Source: Planctomycetota bacterium (GTDB taxonomy: Bacteria > Planctomycetota > GCA-2746535). Taken from it: a stretch of 64,000 bases of DNA. The translations under genes were made by a program, and so were the position numbers. The notes under the pieces are model-generated. The model was given only the letters and a program-made list of their open reading frames with translations. It did not search any database and was not told the DNA's origin. Below are positions 40,759 to 53,700 of this stretch, piece by piece. The stretch is taken from NCBI GenBank assembly GCA_002746535.1, contig NVWA01000016.1, positions 64,001 to 128,000 of the forward strand. The letters are read 5' to 3'. How positions within the stretch are numbered: the stretch's first letter is position 1; each line of letters begins with the position of its first letter.

Positions 40759-42300
40759 ATGAAAAAAATATTACTCCTTAACTTCTTAATACTTATGTTT
40801 GTAAATATACAATCCCAAGAAATAAAAAAAGATTCTAATAAGAAAGTTAAAACAGTCATCAAAAGCAAAGCACCAAAAGAAGACAAGAGCAACACCTATA
40901 AAGTAAAGAAAGAAAAGTTTAAAATTACTTTCAAATCAAAAGGCCAACTCGTACCAACAAAATTTCAAACGATTTCATTAAATCCTAAAAAATGGAACCT
41001 CTTTAAAATTACTAAATTAAAAAAACATGGCGACATGATAAAAAAAGGTGAATCGATAATTGAATTTGACCAAAAGCCATTAGATAAAAACATAAAACAA
41101 CAAGAACACCTTTTAATTGTTTCCCAACTCACATTAAAAGAGTCTTTATTGAAACTAGAAGAAATGAAATCAAGCCAAGAAATTAATCTTGAAACAGTAA
41201 ATAAAAAATCAAAACGATTAAATGAAGATATAAAAGAATATTTTAAAAACGGTCAGAAATGGGATAAAAAATTTAACGAAGACTATCGAAAACGTGTCGC
41301 CGAATACCTTTTATACAATATGGAAGAACTCAGACAATTAGAAAAGATGTATAAAGAAGATGACTTAACTGAAGAGACCGAAGAAATTATATTAACCCGC
41401 CAAAAAAATTCTGTTAACCACATGAAGTTGTGGGCTAGTCATTCTGATTATCGTAGCAAACAATTCAACATAAAATATCTTCCACGTATGAGTGAAGATC
41501 AAAAATCTCTCTTAAAACAGGACAAAATCTCTCTTAAAACCTTAAAAGAAAGTATACCTTTAGCGATTGGTATACTTGAAAAAGGCATTGAAAAACAAAA
41601 AGAAACCATTTTAGATTTAAAAATAAATCTAAAGAAATTAAGTGCTGATAAACAATTGTTCAACATTAAAGCTACTATGAACGGTATCGTTTATTACGGT
41701 CAATTAAATGGTGAAGGATGGCTCAATGCTCAAAACTCAGCAAATTCATTGAAGATACACTTAAATGCGCGTTTATTTACAACCATGATGACAATTGTCT
41801 CCTCAGATAAATTAATTGTTTATTCCCAAATCTTAGAAAACCAATTGCGATGGATGAACGAAAATCTAAAAGGGAAAATGAATCCTATTGCCTATCCCAA
41901 TCAAAAATACAGCTGCAAGCTTTTAAAAATTAAAAAAATACCCTCGAGCAAGTTAAAATTCAACACACACTTTTCTATCAAACCTCTCTCAAAAACCCCA
42001 AGTGACTTATATCCAGGTTACAATGTAAATTTAAAATTTACTCCCGTAGACCTAAATGATGTTATCAGCATTCCGCTTCCATTTTTGCATGAAGAAGATG
42101 AACTTAAATTTGTCTACTTGAAAAGCGATAACGAACTTAAGTTTATTAAAAGAGAAATTACAACTGGATTGAAAAATAAAAAAACTATCCTGGTAACAAA
42201 TGGTTTAACGCTTGATGATATATTATTAAAAAAGAAGCCAAAAAAGGAGGCTGCGAAAAAGACTAAAAAAGCCGAAAGTAATCAAAAAGATGAGAAGTAA
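40759..42300 (+). CDS. HlyD/RND-type periplasmic adaptor protein
   Basis: It has 513 residues from the ATG at 40759, supported by AAGGA six bases upstream; the track start at 40723 is too early. A signal peptide (MKKILLLNFLILMFVNIQSQ) is followed by a Lys-rich linker. Then comes a lipoyl-like half motif (FKSKGQLVPTK, ITKLKKHGDMIKKGESIIEFD), a long coiled-coil hairpin of about 240 residues, and the second half (IKATMNGIVYYGQLNGEGW). A beta-barrel region and a Lys-rich tail end it. Adaptors of this kind link an inner-membrane pump to an outer-membrane channel, but no pump gene is beside it. It overlaps the next gene by 11 bases. Confidence 0.75.
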   Translation: MKKILLLNFLILMFVNIQSQEIKKDSNKKVKTVIKSKAPKEDKSNTYKVKKEKFKITFKSKGQLVPTKFQTISLNPKKWNLFKITKLKKHGDMIKKGESIIEFDQKPLDKNIKQQEHLLIVSQLTLKESLLKLEEMKSSQEINLETVNKKSKRLNEDIKEYFKNGQKWDKKFNEDYRKRVAEYLLYNMEELRQLEKMYKEDDLTEETEEIILTRQKNSVNHMKLWASHSDYRSKQFNIKYLPRMSEDQKSLLKQDKISLKTLKESIPLAIGILEKGIEKQKETILDLKINLKKLSADKQLFNIKATMNGIVYYGQLNGEGWLNAQNSANSLKIHLNARLFTTMMTIVSSDKLIVYSQILENQLRWMNENLKGKMNPIAYPNQKYSCKLLKIKKIPSSKLKFNTHFSIKPLSKTPSDLYPGYNVNLKFTPVDLNDVISIPLPFLHEEDELKFVYLKSDNELKFIKREITTGLKNKKTILVTNGLTLDDILLKKKPKKEAAKKTKKAESNQKDEK

Positions 42301-43453
42301 AATAAATTATTGTTTTATTTTTATTCTGGCTGAACTGCTTATATCGTGTACAAAAATTTCGGTTCAATCTCCATTAGATTCTTGTTCTAAAGCCATCGAA
42401 AAGGGCACCACCTATTTAATTGAAAATCAACACCCTTCAGGAAATTGGGGATCAGCTACAAGAACTAAAGGTTTAAATATTTATGCTCCAATACCAGGAG
42501 CACATCATGGTTTTAAAATGGCCTCAACGGCCTTATGCCTTTCAGCTTTGCTTAAATTAGACTCCAAAAATAAAAAAGTTGGACAAGCAATTATAAAAGC
42601 TACCCATTGGATAATAAAGGAGATACCAAAGGTTAAAAGGGCTACTCCAGATGTGATCTATAATATATGGGCGCATGCCTATACAATAGAAACACTTATT
42701 CAGCTGCATCAATATTACAAATCTTTGAAAATCGATAGCTATCAATTAAAAATTGAAAAACTAATCAACCATCAAATAGCGATGCTTTACAAATACGAGG
42801 TTGTCGACGGCGGCTGGGCCTACTATGATTTTAATATTGGTTCAAAGAAACCGGCGGGGTCTAGTTCAAGCTTTACCACTGCAGCAACACTTATATCATT
42901 AAAATATGCTGAAAAAAATGGCTACAAAATAAATCAAAAAATAATTAACCGAGCAATTAAAGCATTAGTAAGAATGCAAAAACCAGATAAATCATATCTA
43001 TATGGCGAATATTTAAAGTGGCGTCCCATGCACCCTGTTAACCGACCTCCAGGAAGTTTAGGCCGAACCCAATCCTGCAATCTAGCACTTTATTTATGGA
43101 GCCATGAAAGTATTCAAGAACAACATTTATTAACCGGCACTGACAAGCTCGCCCGTAAACACTACTGGCTAGATGCTGGAAGAAAAACAGTCGTACCACA
43201 TGAATCTTTTTTTGCTATTGCAGGATATTTTTATTATCATGCCCTTTATTATGGAAGTAAAAATCTATCCCACCTACCTAATCTACATAAAAAAAGATTA
43301 TCAGAAACATTTATAAAGTATTTATGCAAACGCCAAGAAAAAAATGGCTCTTGGTGGGATTTCCCCTTATATAACTATCATCAATTTTATGGTACAGGCT
43401 ATGCTCTATCAGCATTGATCGATTGCCGAAAAGCTCAAATTAACAATCCCTAG
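42290..43453 (+). CDS. Lipoprotein with alpha/alpha-toroid (terpene-cyclase/prenyltransferase-like) fold
   Basis: The protein is 387 residues. A signal ends ELLISC, so Cys20 should carry lipid. The rest has the repeating helices of the squalene-cyclase/prenyltransferase toroid (AIEKGTTYLIENQHPSGNWGS, RMQKPDKSYLYGEY, YLCKRQEKNGSWWDFPLYNYHQFYGTGYALSAL), including QxxxGxW repeats. The acidic DxDD of real cyclases is absent, so catalysis of that kind is unlikely. An envelope-bound toroid more probably binds a polysaccharide or a hydrophobic ligand. It is translated in an overlap with the HlyD-like gene. Its stop overlaps the convergent gene below. Confidence 0.7.
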   Translation: MRSKINYCFIFILAELLISCTKISVQSPLDSCSKAIEKGTTYLIENQHPSGNWGSATRTKGLNIYAPIPGAHHGFKMASTALCLSALLKLDSKNKKVGQAIIKATHWIIKEIPKVKRATPDVIYNIWAHAYTIETLIQLHQYYKSLKIDSYQLKIEKLINHQIAMLYKYEVVDGGWAYYDFNIGSKKPAGSSSSFTTAATLISLKYAEKNGYKINQKIINRAIKALVRMQKPDKSYLYGEYLKWRPMHPVNRPPGSLGRTQSCNLALYLWSHESIQEQHLLTGTDKLARKHYWLDAGRKTVVPHESFFAIAGYFYYHALYYGSKNLSHLPNLHKKRLSETFIKYLCKRQEKNGSWWDFPLYNYHQFYGTGYALSALIDCRKAQINNP

Positions 43454-45607: not shown

Positions 45608-46094
45608 ATCAGATTATCCTTAACATTCTAGAAGACCAATTGAAATTTTTGACTTGAATCTCAGTAAGCCTCCAGTTTATATTTTCTTCACCAAAATCCA
45701 ATTTTTCAGAAGAACTTTTAAAAAATGTAATAAAAACTACTTTGCATTGATTCAGTGCTGATTCTTTAAATATATAATCTTTCATAAACTCATTTATACT
45801 CGTAATTTACAATATTAATTTTCATATTTTTATAATGAATTATTGAATAAAAACAATTAACAATCATTTCAAATATTCACATTAAAGCTCTAAGATACTC
45901 TCGTCTTCTTCACTTTCTCAATAAAAAGAATTATTCAGCTCTTTACTTTTTTGGTAATTACAGAGCAAATGTTCATATCGGCTCTTTATATAATATCTCA
46001 AAATACATTCAACTTATTTACAAATCAAACATTTTGCCCTTGCACTTATCAAAATATAGTTATGATACGAATTATTTGATAGCGAAGTATTATT
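45608..46094. other. Divergent intergenic region between the oxidoreductase and marR
   Basis: 487 AT-rich bases with no open frame. It must hold two outward promoters. On the plus side TATCAAA (46048) and TTTGATA (46075), an inverted pair, lie in the last 50 bases before marR, around a TATGAT that could be a -10. This could be the MarR operator. I see no other structure. Confidence 0.4.
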
Positions 46095-46541
46095 ATGAAA
46101 TATAGAGAAACTGATGTGTATAAGTTCTTATTAAAGCTTTTAAAGACTTCTCACAATTTACAGGTAAAAGCGGGTGATTTCTTAAGCCAATACAATTTAA
46201 CTCAAGTTCAATTTAACGCTTTGATGATTCTGAAGCATGAAGAGAAAAAAGGATGCTCTCAAAAAGTCCTAGGAGACCATTTGTCTGTAAAAGGTCCAAA
46301 TATATCGACCTTAATTAAAAGACTTTTAAAACTAGAGGTTATCACGCGTACTCCAAACGAAAATGATGATCGAGAAAAGTTAATCAAACTTACCAATAAA
46401 GGTTTAAAGATAATTACAAAAATAGAACCATCGTACTACAAGAAGGTGCAGACAATTTTTTCAGAAATCAATCATAAAAGATTAAAAGAAGCCATGGCTA
46501 TCCTGAATCTTATTGATGAAAATAGTAAGAAAGCCCAATAG
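46095..46541 (+). CDS. MarR-family transcriptional regulator
   Basis: A 148-residue winged-helix dimer. The recognition helix region is CSQKVLGDHLSVKGPNISTLIKRLLKLEVI, and the wing is RTPNENDDREKLIKLTNKG, the classic MarR 'DxRxxxxxLT' pattern with DRE. MarR proteins usually repress a transport or stress gene next to them, released by small aromatic ligands. The giant membrane protein gene begins 37 bases later, so it is the probable target and likely in the same message. Confidence 0.9.
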   Translation: MKYRETDVYKFLLKLLKTSHNLQVKAGDFLSQYNLTQVQFNALMILKHEEKKGCSQKVLGDHLSVKGPNISTLIKRLLKLEVITRTPNENDDREKLIKLTNKGLKIITKIEPSYYKKVQTIFSEINHKRLKEAMAILNLIDENSKKAQ

Positions 46542-46578
46542 ATTAATTGGTTAAGAATAAAATTTACGGAGAAAACAT

Positions 46579-49500
46579 GTGACTGAATTAAAAAACTTGA
46601 GCATTCAGTTAGCCAAAAAATATTCAGATCGCCCCGATCTTCATGGGCCTTTAATTAAGTTAATTACTAAATATTCTTTTCCACAATTAGATTCAAAGGA
46701 TAAGCCCTCTATCCTTGAAATGGCCGAATCGATAACAACTATAATTAAAACAATACAAGATTACGACACAAAACATCAATTAACCTTTTTCTTAAATGAA
46801 GTTAGCAAAGAGGCAAAGGGGATAGTAGCACAAGTTCTACAATCTAGTGATCAAAAACCAATTGATCTAAATTTTCAAAATAATGCTTTAAATATTCATC
46901 CCTCTTATTTGGAATCAGCCGCTGATTTTAAATCTCAAAAGGTATTTGAAAATCTATCACAGATCAATCAAGAAATATTATTTATTAAAAAACAAGATCG
47001 TCCTCAATTAAACAATTTATTAAACCAGCTTGAAAAAGAAAAATCAAATTTATTAGCTAAGAATTCTTGGCTGATAGACAATCTTCTATATTGCATCACC
47101 AATTCGCCCCTGCTGGATGAATTACCCAATTCCTCCGAGTTAAAAAATAAAATCTTTGATCGAATAAATTCAAAATCAAAACAATCCAAAGATGCCGTAA
47201 AAGAAATTCTCAGCGACCTTGACTTTACACCATCAAGAATTTGCGATGGCTTTAAACATCTGGATGAATTAAAAAATAATCAAGGTGTCTATTTTATAAA
47301 ATCAATTAGCGAATTATTTAATGAGTACGAACACGAAATCGTAAATTACCTCGTATACTCAAATTCAGTACAAAGCTACCAAATATTATCCAGCAAATCC
47401 CTTAATTGGAACAATCACACAGCTGCATTAACAATGCTGAATTTAAAATTCCCCGAAAGTTTAAACCAAACCCCCCAAAAAGTAATTGGTGAAAGATTTA
47501 ATCAACATAAAAAATTGGTGAATAGCATAGAGGAATATATTCAACAATTTCCCCTTTTCAGCATAGTCGACATTATATTAAATCTAAACCTCGATGATGG
47601 TACTACTAAAATAGAGAACATTATTCCTGCACCTAAAACTTTAACCGCTCATGAGTTTCTAGGCCAAAGAAATGTAACACCAGAAGAAAAATCATTAATA
47701 CTGAATACCCCCGAAAACTCAGATAACATCGAATCAATAGATGCTTTGGAAACAAAAGAAGGCACGATTAGCAAAGCAGCTAAATTTGCCGCCGACATCC
47801 TACTTGACAAACCGGACATCTCAGCAATTGAGAAAATACCCCTCGCAAGTGTTAAAGTGCAATCAGAAGAATTCTCGAGAAGACAAAAAGATTTTATCCA
47901 AAACACAAACACCATTTGGCATAAACATGTTCAGCCTTTTATAAAACAAAATATTTTTCCACTGGTGGCATCCATTTGTATTTTTATTGGAGTACTATCT
48001 TTGATTGTTGCCTTTTGGGATAAATCCCCCTTCATTAGATACCTGGCGACACCCCTATCTATATTATTAGCCGGGCTGGGTTTACATAAAATAGGTAACT
48101 GGCTATATCAGCTAGATGAAAAAAGTAAGACCCCAGCAAGTATACTTAAAGCATTGTCTCTCTTCTTGGCACCACTAAGCTTTATTATGGTTTCAATACT
48201 AAGCACAGATCCCGAGATTTCATTAATGGTAAAATTTGTTGCGACACCTCTATTAGCGATTGGATTATTAGTTGGTTGGAGAATTGTATTCAAAAGCAGT
48301 ATGAATCTCATCAACCCAATAATGCAAAAACCACACACTATTTCATTATTAATATTGAACGGGCTGCTTTTACTACTGCCAATATATTATTATGCTGATA
48401 ATCATATTACCGATAATCTTATTTTAAGTAAATCTATATTAGTACTTGGATTTTATTTAGGATTTGGATTTCTATTCTTAAAAGTTAAAGGCATCTTAAA
48501 AGAATTTTATAAAGACGAAGCCATTACTAGCCAATTGGCTCCACTATTCTTTATTATCACTACAATAGGCACCTATATAACGGTATGGGGTATAACCCAT
48601 ATTCGACTAAATGAATTACCTGAAGCATTCACCTATTCAATCCTCGTATGCTTCTTTGGTTTAATGACCTATGTAATTGAATTTTACATAAGACGTAAAA
48701 ACCGACTTACCACACTTTCATATGTGGGCACCTCATTTCTAATATTAGGAAATTTGCTGGCTATTTTTAACCCAACAATACGACCAATTGTTCTTCTTGT
48801 CACTGCCAGCATTTGGTTCTATCAAGCTCATCACCGAAAAGATGAAAGGCACTATACCATAAGTATAATTCTAGTATTATGCGGAATTACTTCATTTGCC
48901 TTTTATAAAGATTTCCCAACCTTTCTTTTTCCTTATTTGATAGCTCTTCAAGCTTTATCACTAATATTCACATCTAAGAAATTTAAAATCTTCAAAAACA
49001 TCATTCCAATAATTTTTTATCCGTTTGTAATTATAGGAACATTGATCTCTCTATACTTCACATGGACACAGCCAACACTTCAAATAATTAGTGCTCTTGG
49101 ACTAATACTACTAAGTGGATTAATTATTTATAAAGCAAACCAAGACAAACAAATTGAACAAATCCACACGGGTCTTCTGATTTCAATAACGGCACTCCCA
49201 TTCTTAGGTCTAGCTGATACGATCAACAAAATTTACCTCGGGAATATACTACTTTTTGGCTTTAGCATGTTAGGGTTTTTATGGATCGGTCTTTGTTATC
49301 ATTATAAAGAATCGTTCCTAGTAAAGGCAAGATCAACAGGATTATTTATTATCGCCATCATAGCCTTTTGTGTACTTCTGGTGAACTTATCTTTTGGTCC
49401 AGATCCTTTAAATTCAGACATTCGCCAATATTTAGTAATGGCAGGCCCTATATTGCTAAGCGTGATCTTTTTTATCAATGGATTTAAAACAAGATCTCAA

Positions 49501-52500
49501 ATACCCGTGTACCTAGGTCTGTTTACCCTTGTTTTTATATTCCCTGAAATAAAAAATCATTATAACATTGTCATGAAATCAGGACTAGGTAGCGCAGTCT
49601 CAATGGCTTTTATGCTGGCAATTGCCTATGGATTAAAACATATTAAGCAACTTAAAGATCTCGATGATGGCGATATGATTCTAGATAAAACACCATTCCC
49701 TCTTCATAAAAAGGATCACCGACTTTTCACAGAACCACTTATATTGGCAGCCCTTGTTTTAATAGCAAGGACAGTATTTAAATCATATCCTGTCAATATT
49801 TATCATGGTTACTTTGATAATTCAATTGAATCAGCAGATCCTTTTGAGATCAAGACACTTTTCGCATTAGCAATTCAGAGTGTTGGATTATTATTCTATA
49901 CTTTATGGTATAAGAAAAGTATTTTCACTTATATTGGCTTAGCACTTTCATTCATTACCGCTATTCATTTTTCTCATTTTATAAACATTGAACTTATAGC
50001 GATATATATGCTAGTACTCTTTTTCTGCTGGGAAGGCCTTTCTTATATATCCCAACGAAAAAATATTTCCGATAATTTAATTCAAAGCCCTATTCGAAAT
50101 GCATTTCTACTGGCAATGATTGCCTTCACTTTCATCTTATATCCCCTTTATACTTTAAATGATTTTCAACTCCCTCATTTATTTGCCGTACCACTATATT
50201 TATTTTTTATTTTCAAATCTTATCGATTTAATATCTCCAAACCCTGTCTTCCTCATATTACGATACTTTTTCTGTTGTGTTGGCAAACATTTATTTTAGT
50301 GTCTACCAATGGCATGTCCATTTTAAGTTTGATGAAACCAGACTCACCCTTTTATCTTTTTTCATTTATATTCATCTCTCTCTGGGCACTACCAACTTAT
50401 TATTTCGAATTTAAAAAACAAGAATCTTTATTTCGCTATTTCTACCAAAGCCTTTTTCTGCCACTAATTATTTGTTTAATAATCACTGTCCATTATATAA
50501 AAATGATGTATCTACCAGGATATGTACAACTTGAACTGGTCACAGCGCCATTCACCTTAGTCGTAGCAACAATAGCATTAATTCTACTAGCGAGATTAAT
50601 CAGAATATCATTTAATTGGCTTTGGATTACTTTAATCGTCTATGCACTATTTATAAGCTTTATATTTCCAGACATTTCTACCGCAATGATTTACCATCCC
50701 ATTGCACTAACAGTATTGATTATCAGCACAAATATCTTTAGCTTTCTCATTACTAAGTTTGACCATTATTTTATTCCTAAAATTAAAGCACCACTCATCA
50801 TACAAAAATTGCCTAGCACACAATTAGTACTGACCATCTTTGGCCAATTGATAAAACTAAGCATCGTTTTCTATTTAATATGGGTTGCTCCTTTCAAATT
50901 CACACCATTTACAACGGTTGCACTATACCTCATTGCCATTACTTCAATACAAGATGCTAAATTCCTTAAAATCAGTAAAGCATTTTATTTCTGGCTATTC
51001 TTCACATTCACAAATATATATTTAGTACTCGCATTAAACAATAGCTTCCCTGATTTTAGATTTTTTAAACATCTCCATATCAATCATTTGATTGCCATAG
51101 GATTGTTCATTTCGTTGTTGATAGCCGTTGTTTTTGATAAGCTAAAATTCTTCAAAGATAATACAAATAAATCCAGCTTCTATTTAATAAAATACGTTGC
51201 TGCAGCCTCTATTCCCTTTTTAATTTTTATTCAATATTGTCTGATCAGAAATATAAATATCCCATGGGAAAGAAGTGTCGTTTCTGCCGCATTAGCTCTT
51301 GGATCTGCCTTATATTTAAGGTATATGGTCCCAGACCAAGATAAGCAAAAAAGCTATGGGTTATTTACCTTCAGCCTATCTATCAGTATTTTTTGTATAG
51401 GTTTATTGATACTTGAAAAAGTCATGAAAATTGAAATGACACCTATGATTGCCTTTGCCATTCTAGCTCTTTCGCCATTTTGGTTTGCAATCAAAGCCGA
51501 ATTAAATTTTAAAAATAACAACATACACAATAGCGCAAGAGATGCCGCACAAATTTTATTGACTCTCTTGATGGGTTTTTATGTATATCAAAACATCTTT
51601 GATATTTTCTTCTTGCCTGGTACTGAAACCAGCATGACCTATTATTTTCAAAATGCATTTGTTTGTTTCATTGCATCTGTCTTAATGTGGCGTACTCATA
51701 AAATGAAAGGGCATTCCGCGATACCCTATCTCAGTATATCTATGATGCTCATTTCTTTATTTTTTATGTTTAATAATTTCACGCCAATAAACCTAACCAT
51801 AAATCCAGCCATGTCATGTTATACAGCAATAATACTAGGGGTCATCATTTGGTTAAATATTGAAAATGATCAACCACTCTATAATCTACTTAAGAATTCT
51901 GCTAAACTGAGTGATGAAGAATGGGTTAATATCAAATCAATAATACACACAATTGTGATTATTGGGTCACATATACTTTTCTTATTAGCCCTATTCGAAG
52001 GAACTGAAGATAACAATGCCGCCCTAATTCTAGTTGGCTTGGCTAGCTTATGGAGCTATTTGGGGATCTCTAAAAGAAAAACTCGTTTCTTGCACTTAGC
52101 CTTCTTTTATTTATTACTCGTCTGTTTAATAATTCCTCATACTTCAAAATTCATTCCAGATCATCTGACTGTTTTGCTATTAACATCTATGCTAGCCGGA
52201 TTACTAATAACATATCAAATCTTCTTAAAAAATCATTTCATCGAACAGTCACATAAAATCGTAAAAGTTATTGTTACTTGGTCTACTTTATTATTTACAA
52301 TAATTTTCTTTATTTCATTCCTGGAAATAGGAAACCACAAAAACATCATCCTTACATTATTAGCAACATCTTGGCTTCTAGTCTTATGCTCTCCATTTAT
52401 AAATAAAAATACTTCTAATGTTTTTGAAAAAATGTTAGTTTTAAGTTTTATGAATTTGCCCTGTTTAATATTAGCTCAAATATTTCATACAGGTCTTTTT

Positions 52501-53700
52501 TATAATGTAATTGTATTGCTACTCTCAATCACATCGATCAATTTAGGGGTTTACCTTTTGGATCATAAAAAGAAATCTGACTGGAGCGCTAAACATAAAA
52601 GTATCAATAGATTTGGCAGTTATATCATCGTTCATTATTTCCAACCAACTACGCGTTATGCCAGAATCTCTTTATATATGGCCAGTACAATTTCTCTTGC
52701 AATTCAACTAATTTATTTTGCAACAAGCTATTCTTCTTTTCAAAATTCTCACATCATTTACATGCTTTTTTTACATGCGCTAACACAATTGTTATTAATC
52801 GCCTTTTTATTTCTTGAAGCTAAAAGAAGTCAAAAAGTTATTTTTATGGTTATTGCAGAATTAATATACTTCTCATTTTATATGCAGATGAGATTAGCAT
52901 TACCTGTAGCATTCAACATTATATGGGATTCCGCATATGATGTTTACTTTTTAATGATTCAATCTTTTATTGTTGTTTCTCTACATTCAATAATTCAAAA
53001 ACAAGAGTCCTATATTCAAAAACCTATCAACTTCTCAATTTTAGGGTTTCCAATCTTAACCATTATGCTTTGCATGTATTTTAATATCGATCAAAATCTT
53101 ATGATGCATACGCTACTCTTTTATTCCGGAATATTTATCTGGCAATCGTACAACGAAAGAAGTAGGTTCATACTCTCATACGCTTTTTTAGGTTTAAATG
53201 CTTATGTCTTACTACAGTTATTTCACAATCATATTCATTCAGTACAAGCCTATGTGGCTCCACTGTGCATAACTTTATTAATTTATTCTCAAATGTTTCG
53301 AGATCGTACTTCAAAAACTACTGCTAATATATTGCGAACTATATCGCTGATAGCTATTTTGGGGACATCAGGGTGGGAAATAATTGCTAAAAATTTAACA
53401 TCCCCTTCTCATCATGCCATCCTAATTATCTTATGTAGTGCCGCCATATATTTTGCTGCTGTTTTTAAAGCGAAAATTTATGCCGTCATAGGCTCAACTG
53501 TTTTTCTTTTAGACATCGGAACTATCATTTATCTGTTAGTAAAAAATCAGGATAAAAATATGATTATAATTAGTCTTGGATTATTACTAACTATTGGGGG
53601 CAGCATTCTTCTCGGAGGGTATATTTATTATCGCAAAAACGAAAAAGCTATCGACGAAAAAATAGAAAAATTAAAATCTTTGATTAAGAGATGGGATTAA
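46579..53700 (+). CDS. Giant polytopic membrane protein, 2373 residues
   Basis: A GTG start with GGAG seven bases upstream. The first 450 or so residues are soluble, charged and helical (DLHGPLIKLITKYSF, SSELKNKIFDRINSKSK). From about residue 453 onward the sequence is almost unbroken hydrophobic helices (NIFPLVASICIFIGVLSLIVAFWD, then FLAPLSFIMVSIL and so on) to residue 2350. I estimate 50 or more membrane spans by eye. A short charged tail (IDEKIEKLKSLIKRW) ends it. No pore, ATPase or glycosyltransferase motif is visible. DUF2157/DUF2339-type proteins have a similar soluble-then-many-helices plan but are much shorter. It follows marR and may be controlled by it. Confidence 0.8.
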   Translation: MTELKNLSIQLAKKYSDRPDLHGPLIKLITKYSFPQLDSKDKPSILEMAESITTIIKTIQDYDTKHQLTFFLNEVSKEAKGIVAQVLQSSDQKPIDLNFQNNALNIHPSYLESAADFKSQKVFENLSQINQEILFIKKQDRPQLNNLLNQLEKEKSNLLAKNSWLIDNLLYCITNSPLLDELPNSSELKNKIFDRINSKSKQSKDAVKEILSDLDFTPSRICDGFKHLDELKNNQGVYFIKSISELFNEYEHEIVNYLVYSNSVQSYQILSSKSLNWNNHTAALTMLNLKFPESLNQTPQKVIGERFNQHKKLVNSIEEYIQQFPLFSIVDIILNLNLDDGTTKIENIIPAPKTLTAHEFLGQRNVTPEEKSLILNTPENSDNIESIDALETKEGTISKAAKFAADILLDKPDISAIEKIPLASVKVQSEEFSRRQKDFIQNTNTIWHKHVQPFIKQNIFPLVASICIFIGVLSLIVAFWDKSPFIRYLATPLSILLAGLGLHKIGNWLYQLDEKSKTPASILKALSLFLAPLSFIMVSILSTDPEISLMVKFVATPLLAIGLLVGWRIVFKSSMNLINPIMQKPHTISLLILNGLLLLLPIYYYADNHITDNLILSKSILVLGFYLGFGFLFLKVKGILKEFYKDEAITSQLAPLFFIITTIGTYITVWGITHIRLNELPEAFTYSILVCFFGLMTYVIEFYIRRKNRLTTLSYVGTSFLILGNLLAIFNPTIRPIVLLVTASIWFYQAHHRKDERHYTISIILVLCGITSFAFYKDFPTFLFPYLIALQALSLIFTSKKFKIFKNIIPIIFYPFVIIGTLISLYFTWTQPTLQIISALGLILLSGLIIYKANQDKQIEQIHTGLLISITALPFLGLADTINKIYLGNILLFGFSMLGFLWIGLCYHYKESFLVKARSTGLFIIAIIAFCVLLVNLSFGPDPLNSDIRQYLVMAGPILLSVIFFINGFKTRSQIPVYLGLFTLVFIFPEIKNHYNIVMKSGLGSAVSMAFMLAIAYGLKHIKQLKDLDDGDMILDKTPFPLHKKDHRLFTEPLILAALVLIARTVFKSYPVNIYHGYFDNSIESADPFEIKTLFALAIQSVGLLFYTLWYKKSIFTYIGLALSFITAIHFSHFINIELIAIYMLVLFFCWEGLSYISQRKNISDNLIQSPIRNAFLLAMIAFTFILYPLYTLNDFQLPHLFAVPLYLFFIFKSYRFNISKPCLPHITILFLLCWQTFILVSTNGMSILSLMKPDSPFYLFSFIFISLWALPTYYFEFKKQESLFRYFYQSLFLPLIICLIITVHYIKMMYLPGYVQLELVTAPFTLVVATIALILLARLIRISFNWLWITLIVYALFISFIFPDISTAMIYHPIALTVLIISTNIFSFLITKFDHYFIPKIKAPLIIQKLPSTQLVLTIFGQLIKLSIVFYLIWVAPFKFTPFTTVALYLIAITSIQDAKFLKISKAFYFWLFFTFTNIYLVLALNNSFPDFRFFKHLHINHLIAIGLFISLLIAVVFDKLKFFKDNTNKSSFYLIKYVAAASIPFLIFIQYCLIRNINIPWERSVVSAALALGSALYLRYMVPDQDKQKSYGLFTFSLSISIFCIGLLILEKVMKIEMTPMIAFAILALSPFWFAIKAELNFKNNNIHNSARDAAQILLTLLMGFYVYQNIFDIFFLPGTETSMTYYFQNAFVCFIASVLMWRTHKMKGHSAIPYLSISMMLISLFFMFNNFTPINLTINPAMSCYTAIILGVIIWLNIENDQPLYNLLKNSAKLSDEEWVNIKSIIHTIVIIGSHILFLLALFEGTEDNNAALILVGLASLWSYLGISKRKTRFLHLAFFYLLLVCLIIPHTSKFIPDHLTVLLLTSMLAGLLITYQIFLKNHFIEQSHKIVKVIVTWSTLLFTIIFFISFLEIGNHKNIILTLLATSWLLVLCSPFINKNTSNVFEKMLVLSFMNLPCLILAQIFHTGLFYNVIVLLLSITSINLGVYLLDHKKKSDWSAKHKSINRFGSYIIVHYFQPTTRYARISLYMASTISLAIQLIYFATSYSSFQNSHIIYMLFLHALTQLLLIAFLFLEAKRSQKVIFMVIAELIYFSFYMQMRLALPVAFNIIWDSAYDVYFLMIQSFIVVSLHSIIQKQESYIQKPINFSILGFPILTIMLCMYFNIDQNLMMHTLLFYSGIFIWQSYNERSRFILSYAFLGLNAYVLLQLFHNHIHSVQAYVAPLCITLLIYSQMFRDRTSKTTANILRTISLIAILGTSGWEIIAKNLTSPSHHAILIILCSAAIYFAAVFKAKIYAVIGSTVFLLDIGTIIYLLVKNQDKNMIIISLGLLLTIGGSILLGGYIYYRKNEKAIDEKIEKLKSLIKRWD

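Follow-up and report, generated by a model that had tools for sequence, protein, structure and literature searches.

What does a bacterium do with a single protein of some 56–60 membrane helices? The question is raised by a gene that lies just behind a MarR regulator in the window analysed here, a stretch of 64,000 nucleotides from a Planctomycetota bacterium (positions 64,001 to 128,000 of contig NVWA01000016.1).

The giant gene and its MarR neighbour

An earlier note on this DNA, made from the sequence alone, had described a 2373-residue protein with at least 50 helices, whose gene follows a MarR gene at a distance of 37 bases, and both observations hold. The giant's frame runs on the forward strand from a GTG at 46579 to 53700, 2373 codons with zero internal stops and about 56–60 predicted spans by hydropathy and AlphaFold; a ribosome-binding site (GGAG, 46568–46571, forward strand) stands ahead of the start, and the remaining five frames of the same DNA carry 136–251 stops apiece. 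The note had itself asked whether such a frame might be an artefact of several fused genes, or might turn out to match a known large family clearly. Fusion or frameshift is ruled out because the same co-linear length recurs in ~30 independent assemblies, whose homologues are full-length. As for known large families, none that has been characterised gives a clear match. The giant is a real protein encoded by a single gene.

The neighbouring 148-residue MarR-family regulator (46095–46541, forward strand) is co-directional with the giant and matches PF01047 at 43 bits (cut-off 24.6; E 4e-11), and the two genes are likely co-transcribed. On the basis of this spacing, control of the giant by MarR is plausible. 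The pairing that had been noted is thus real in the source genome, but no MarR gene was seen beside any other family locus examined, and we therefore leave it outside the definition of the family. Likewise, the inverted pair noted in the MarR promoter region is present (TATCAAA-N21-TTTGATA, 46047–46081), a candidate operator by position, but 15% of Markov resamples contain a comparable 7-base pair, and it is therefore no evidence of an operator. Elsewhere, a MarR gene immediately precedes the gene of a DUF2339 protein of 1207 residues in a different genome (L115:2-4271), and a TetR gene lies upstream of one giant (L147); together these are a suggestive hint of regulation, not an established one.

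Distribution and size of the family

A first scan of genome contigs with the single giant protein as query gave no match. Searches of genomes from the same phylum returned co-linear open frames of 2331, 2353 and 2222 residues, followed by further members, and a profile scan of genome contigs with an alignment of these relatives yielded 32 loci. Nearly all are one frame of 2222–2436 residues wherever the contig permits, and co-linear homologues, mostly of 2.2–2.4 thousand residues, occur in ~30 genomes besides the source genome. The hosts are Planctomycetota, Verrucomicrobia, Lentisphaerae and Akkermansiaceae, with one Elusimicrobia and one Deltaproteobacteria metagenome-assembled genome (MAG); nearly all the records are labelled as MAGs, and none comes from a named cultured species. 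In the tree the giants form their own clade (support 100/98), and the window's protein, a divergent one, groups with G035.

The giant has no match to Pfam families by hmmscan and none in phage and defence libraries, no enzyme family is returned by Pfam, NCBIfam or PDB sequence searches, and the PDB search gave one chance match and nothing else. To judge from the libraries searched and the open literature, the family is so far undescribed.

Topology, conserved parts and structure models

The protein begins with a poorly conserved soluble front of ~445 residues (residues 1–445, 46579–47913, forward strand), close to the 450 residues first estimated; residues 1–440 have a mean hydropathy of -0.45 and are without any hydrophobic segment. 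Beyond this front, hydropathy alone gives 52–60 segments, varying with the cut-off. AlphaFold helices and hydropathy combined place 18 spans in residues 436–1070, ~12 in 1071–1479 and 26 in 1480–2373, a total of ~56, or up to ~60 if borderline helices are counted.

Conservation across the giants is strongest at residues 451–1050, 1551–1830 and 2101–2373. The first two of these stretches are conserved block 1 (47929–49728) and conserved block 2 (51229–52068), and the third falls within a C-terminal module (residues ~2078–2373, 52810–53697), all on the forward strand. Residues 445–560 (47911–48258, forward strand) make up what we term the first membrane module, in which W480, R487 and P492 are invariant and D481 and Y488 nearly so; the charged residues D481, R487, R735 and R972 are conserved within membrane segments. 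The protein closes with a soluble tail helix (53641–53697, forward strand) ending in Trp plus one residue, an ending found in 27 of 28 complete giants.

The internal repeats for which the earlier note had suggested looking are absent from the gene at the DNA level, and adjacent blocks of the protein show no significant mutual similarity (best E 0.0018). There is a weak resemblance between the C-terminal module and part of block 1 (residues ~760–1030; profile comparison, E 5e-7 against 0.002 for the control), which points to a possible internal duplication.

AlphaFold gives confident predicted models for both segments modelled, residues 436–1070 (pLDDT 82.4, pTM 0.73) and 1480–2373 (pLDDT 78.1, pTM 0.52). 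No solved membrane-protein or transporter fold stood out as a match to them in Foldseek and VIA-align, an absence that is no proof. Among solved structures, helical solenoids and toroids, including alpha/alpha toroids, come closest; the circular tandem repeat 7rdr_A, for example, matches with Z 9.7 over 385 residues and Z 11.6 over 415. Since all matches have Z < 13 and high rmsd, the range usual for helical arrangements, we take the solenoid idea as a lead only.

Kinship with known membrane proteins

The earlier statement that the giant carries no known motif is borne out by Pfam but not by NCBIfam, where SCO7613_CTERM (NF047321) matches it at 19.4 bits, under the NCBI curated cut-off of 45, and profile tests confirm the link. 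The C-terminal module aligns with the SCO7613_CTERM class by hhalign at 99.5% (E 1.5e-22 over 278 residues; reversed control 0.05), a search with an HMM of SCO7613-type proteins recovers 24 of 30 giants at E < 1e-3 (best E 8e-22) and zero reversed sequences, and the first membrane module is common to both groups (hhalign E 1e-17). Judged from these profiles, the C-terminal ~280 residues of the giant are clearly homologous to this uncharacterised class, in which the domain likewise ends a large polytopic protein and 22 of 26 members share the Trp-x ending. The giants differ in falling below the cut-off, in forming a separate clade, in their fixed length of ~2.2–2.4 thousand residues and in two extra conserved blocks. 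Deletion of SCO7613 has been published to reduce PHA, an effect that is possibly indirect according to its authors and that we do not weigh as evidence here.

A more distant relationship leads to DUF2339. By hhalign, the giants' first membrane module matches DUF2339 profiles at 95.7% (E 9e-9, against 2e-4 for the reversed control); for the SCO7613 class the figures are 97% and E 9e-11, against 1e-6 for the reversed control, with one poor row (L062) in the DUF2339 set behind the comparison. No such similarity was seen by hmmsearch in either direction with a DUF2339 set that held wrong ORFs, and neither the giant nor its source genome has a match to PF10101 over the cut-off. It is probable from the profile alignments that the first membrane module is remotely homologous to DUF2339, which is not to say that the giant is a member. 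The giants are kin of known, poorly understood giant membrane proteins.

The DUF2339 protein of interest is Arc3A, with 35 predicted spans and a mechanism that is unknown, which keeps lysophosphatidylethanolamine and monolysocardiolipin from accumulating when phospholipases attack, and arc3 genes adjoin aas genes in many bacteria (PMC8926400); both aas and arc3A protect against lipase effectors (PMC12663445). Giant and Arc3A have in common very many helices, a soluble front and probably the first membrane module. They differ in that the giant has no Pfam match and only a remote similarity, that the Planctomycetota DUF2339 proteins found here are ~800–1200 residues long, and that no DUF3999 (Arc3B) partner was seen for the giants. 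An Arc3-like pair does occur in a planctomycete, where a DUF3999 (Arc3B-like) gene adjoins a DUF2339 gene (L111:2642-4057).

DUF2157 (PF09925), a LiaF-type membrane domain, enters through sister proteins of 1215 residues, which match it at their first membrane module with E 9e-6, under the cut-off; the giant itself has no match, and its profile stays at control level. The source genome also encodes a tandem pair of membrane proteins with 9 helices each, of which the second matches DUF2157; a small protein with a single helix comes next (L122:4781-7343).

Gene context of the giants and their relatives

The giants are mostly solitary genes, and no neighbour is conserved across loci. The most informative context is that of an Akkermansiaceae genome (L149:5843-18008), where one strand carries Aas, LplT, a gap of 35 bp, the giant, a gap of 80 bp and a PlsC-type acyltransferase, in a genome with just 5 PF01553 genes in 6.1 Mb. 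At a second locus (L133) a PlsB/PlsC-like acyltransferase gene is divergent at the giant's start, and at a third (L153) an LpxL-type acyltransferase gene lies 51 bp upstream. These acyltransferase contexts, 3 of ~28 loci, were spotted post hoc; the profiles used found no other acyltransferase genes in 422 kb of giant flanks, LplT-Aas genes are absent from the window and from the other giant loci scanned, and most giant loci have no adjoining lipid gene. A squalene-hopene-cyclase-like repeat protein is encoded in the window at 42290-43453, and the giant at L010 has two genes of similar kind upstream of it. Such genes were considered as partners (in the window and at G020) and rejected, as they show no enrichment relative to other loci.

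Two sister clades have more regular partners. In Planctomycetota a PspA/IM30 gene follows the ~1215-residue SCO7613-type sister proteins in five of five cases (L049:4687-9096, L052:1-3679, L054:5308-9699, L206, L208), and a Band-7/SPFH gene precedes sister proteins of 1460–1580 residues in all four (L104:1806-7703, L105:1420-7130, L192, L195); each set is a well supported clade of the superfamily. In B. subtilis a single membrane-stress complex unites PspA with an SPFH protein and integral membrane proteins (PMC8581546). The two sister clades resemble this complex (YdjFGHI) and phage-shock systems in being encoded beside PspA or Band-7, but the giant clade differs: neither gene was found beside the giants, the window included, and three PspA genes lie elsewhere in the source genome.

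Possible functions

Among the roles guessed in the earlier note (transporter, scramblase-like protein or lipid channel, structural protein), a lipid-related one is best supported. Specifically, the giant may be a lipid-stress protein, concerned with lysolipids and membrane integrity, that acts like Arc3A; both the lipid role and the mechanism are what we infer, and we would put the chances a little short of even. Of the readings that take in the size of the protein, its remote kinship and the gene contexts, it is the simplest. The DUF2339 profile alignments, the Aas-LplT context, the acyltransferases at L133 and L153 and the PspA and Band-7 pairings of the sister clades all speak for it. Against it stand the profile-to-profile nature of the DUF2339 link, the lack of an adjoining lipid gene at most giant loci, the post hoc recognition of the three acyltransferase contexts, the fact that it is sister clades rather than giants that pair with PspA and Band-7, and the absence of any identified lipid-binding site in the giant.

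Under an Arc3A-like lipid-stress role, the giant would be a chromosomally encoded protein of the inner membrane, of house-keeping or stress type, whose big helix array handles damaged, single-chain phospholipids (lysophospholipids) and so prevents their build-up. It might sequester them, offer them to re-acylating enzymes of the LplT/Aas or PlsC type, or organise membrane repair together with partners of the PspA/SPFH type, and in the source genome the MarR regulator would probably control it. One could go further and imagine a ~57-helix single-chain transmembrane solenoid, also under MarR control, whose ring or arc encloses or samples a patch of lipid and captures lysophospholipids for LplT/Aas, but this specific picture strikes us as improbable.

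There are other readings of the same evidence. If successive helical hairpins formed a curved two-layer wall in the membrane, the giant could be a structural scaffold or corral, which would enclose a patch of lipid or give it shape, or hold peripheral membrane-repair proteins in place, with no substrate at all; the solenoid and toroid matches, the strongly conserved total length and the PspA or SPFH neighbours of the sister clades would fit, but those matches are of ordinary quality for helical models and those neighbours are missing from the giant's own loci, and we regard a scaffold as unlikely. The fixed length also bears on the idea of a transporter or flippase of many domains that would act on a lipid-linked or hydrophobic substrate, since a fixed length is not what a modular protein would show. 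MarR regulators often control efflux systems, and a MarR-controlled transporter would account for the many spans, the conserved charged membrane residues and the regulator genes here, at L115 and at L147; with no outstanding transporter fold and no conserved ATPase or partner gene, it seems to us unlikely in the same degree. The invariant polar residues spread over the three conserved blocks could instead mark a membrane-embedded enzyme, such as an acyltransferase or glycosyltransferase whose catalytic module is small. Given that the searches return no enzyme family and that ~57 helices would be superfluous for such a module, we consider an enzyme very improbable.

Significance

Arc3A-type giant polytopic proteins guard bacteria from phospholipase damage by means that remain mysterious, and the giants described here would add a second branch beside Arc3A, very large and conserved in length, found in three PVC phyla and absent from Pfam. 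One locus (L149) ties them directly to lysophospholipid re-acylation, and their sister clades are tied to PspA and SPFH proteins. Were the corral solenoid to prove true, its architecture and mechanism would, to our knowledge, be undescribed for any membrane protein. With confident models and clear gene partners in hand, the purpose of so many helices in one chain becomes testable.
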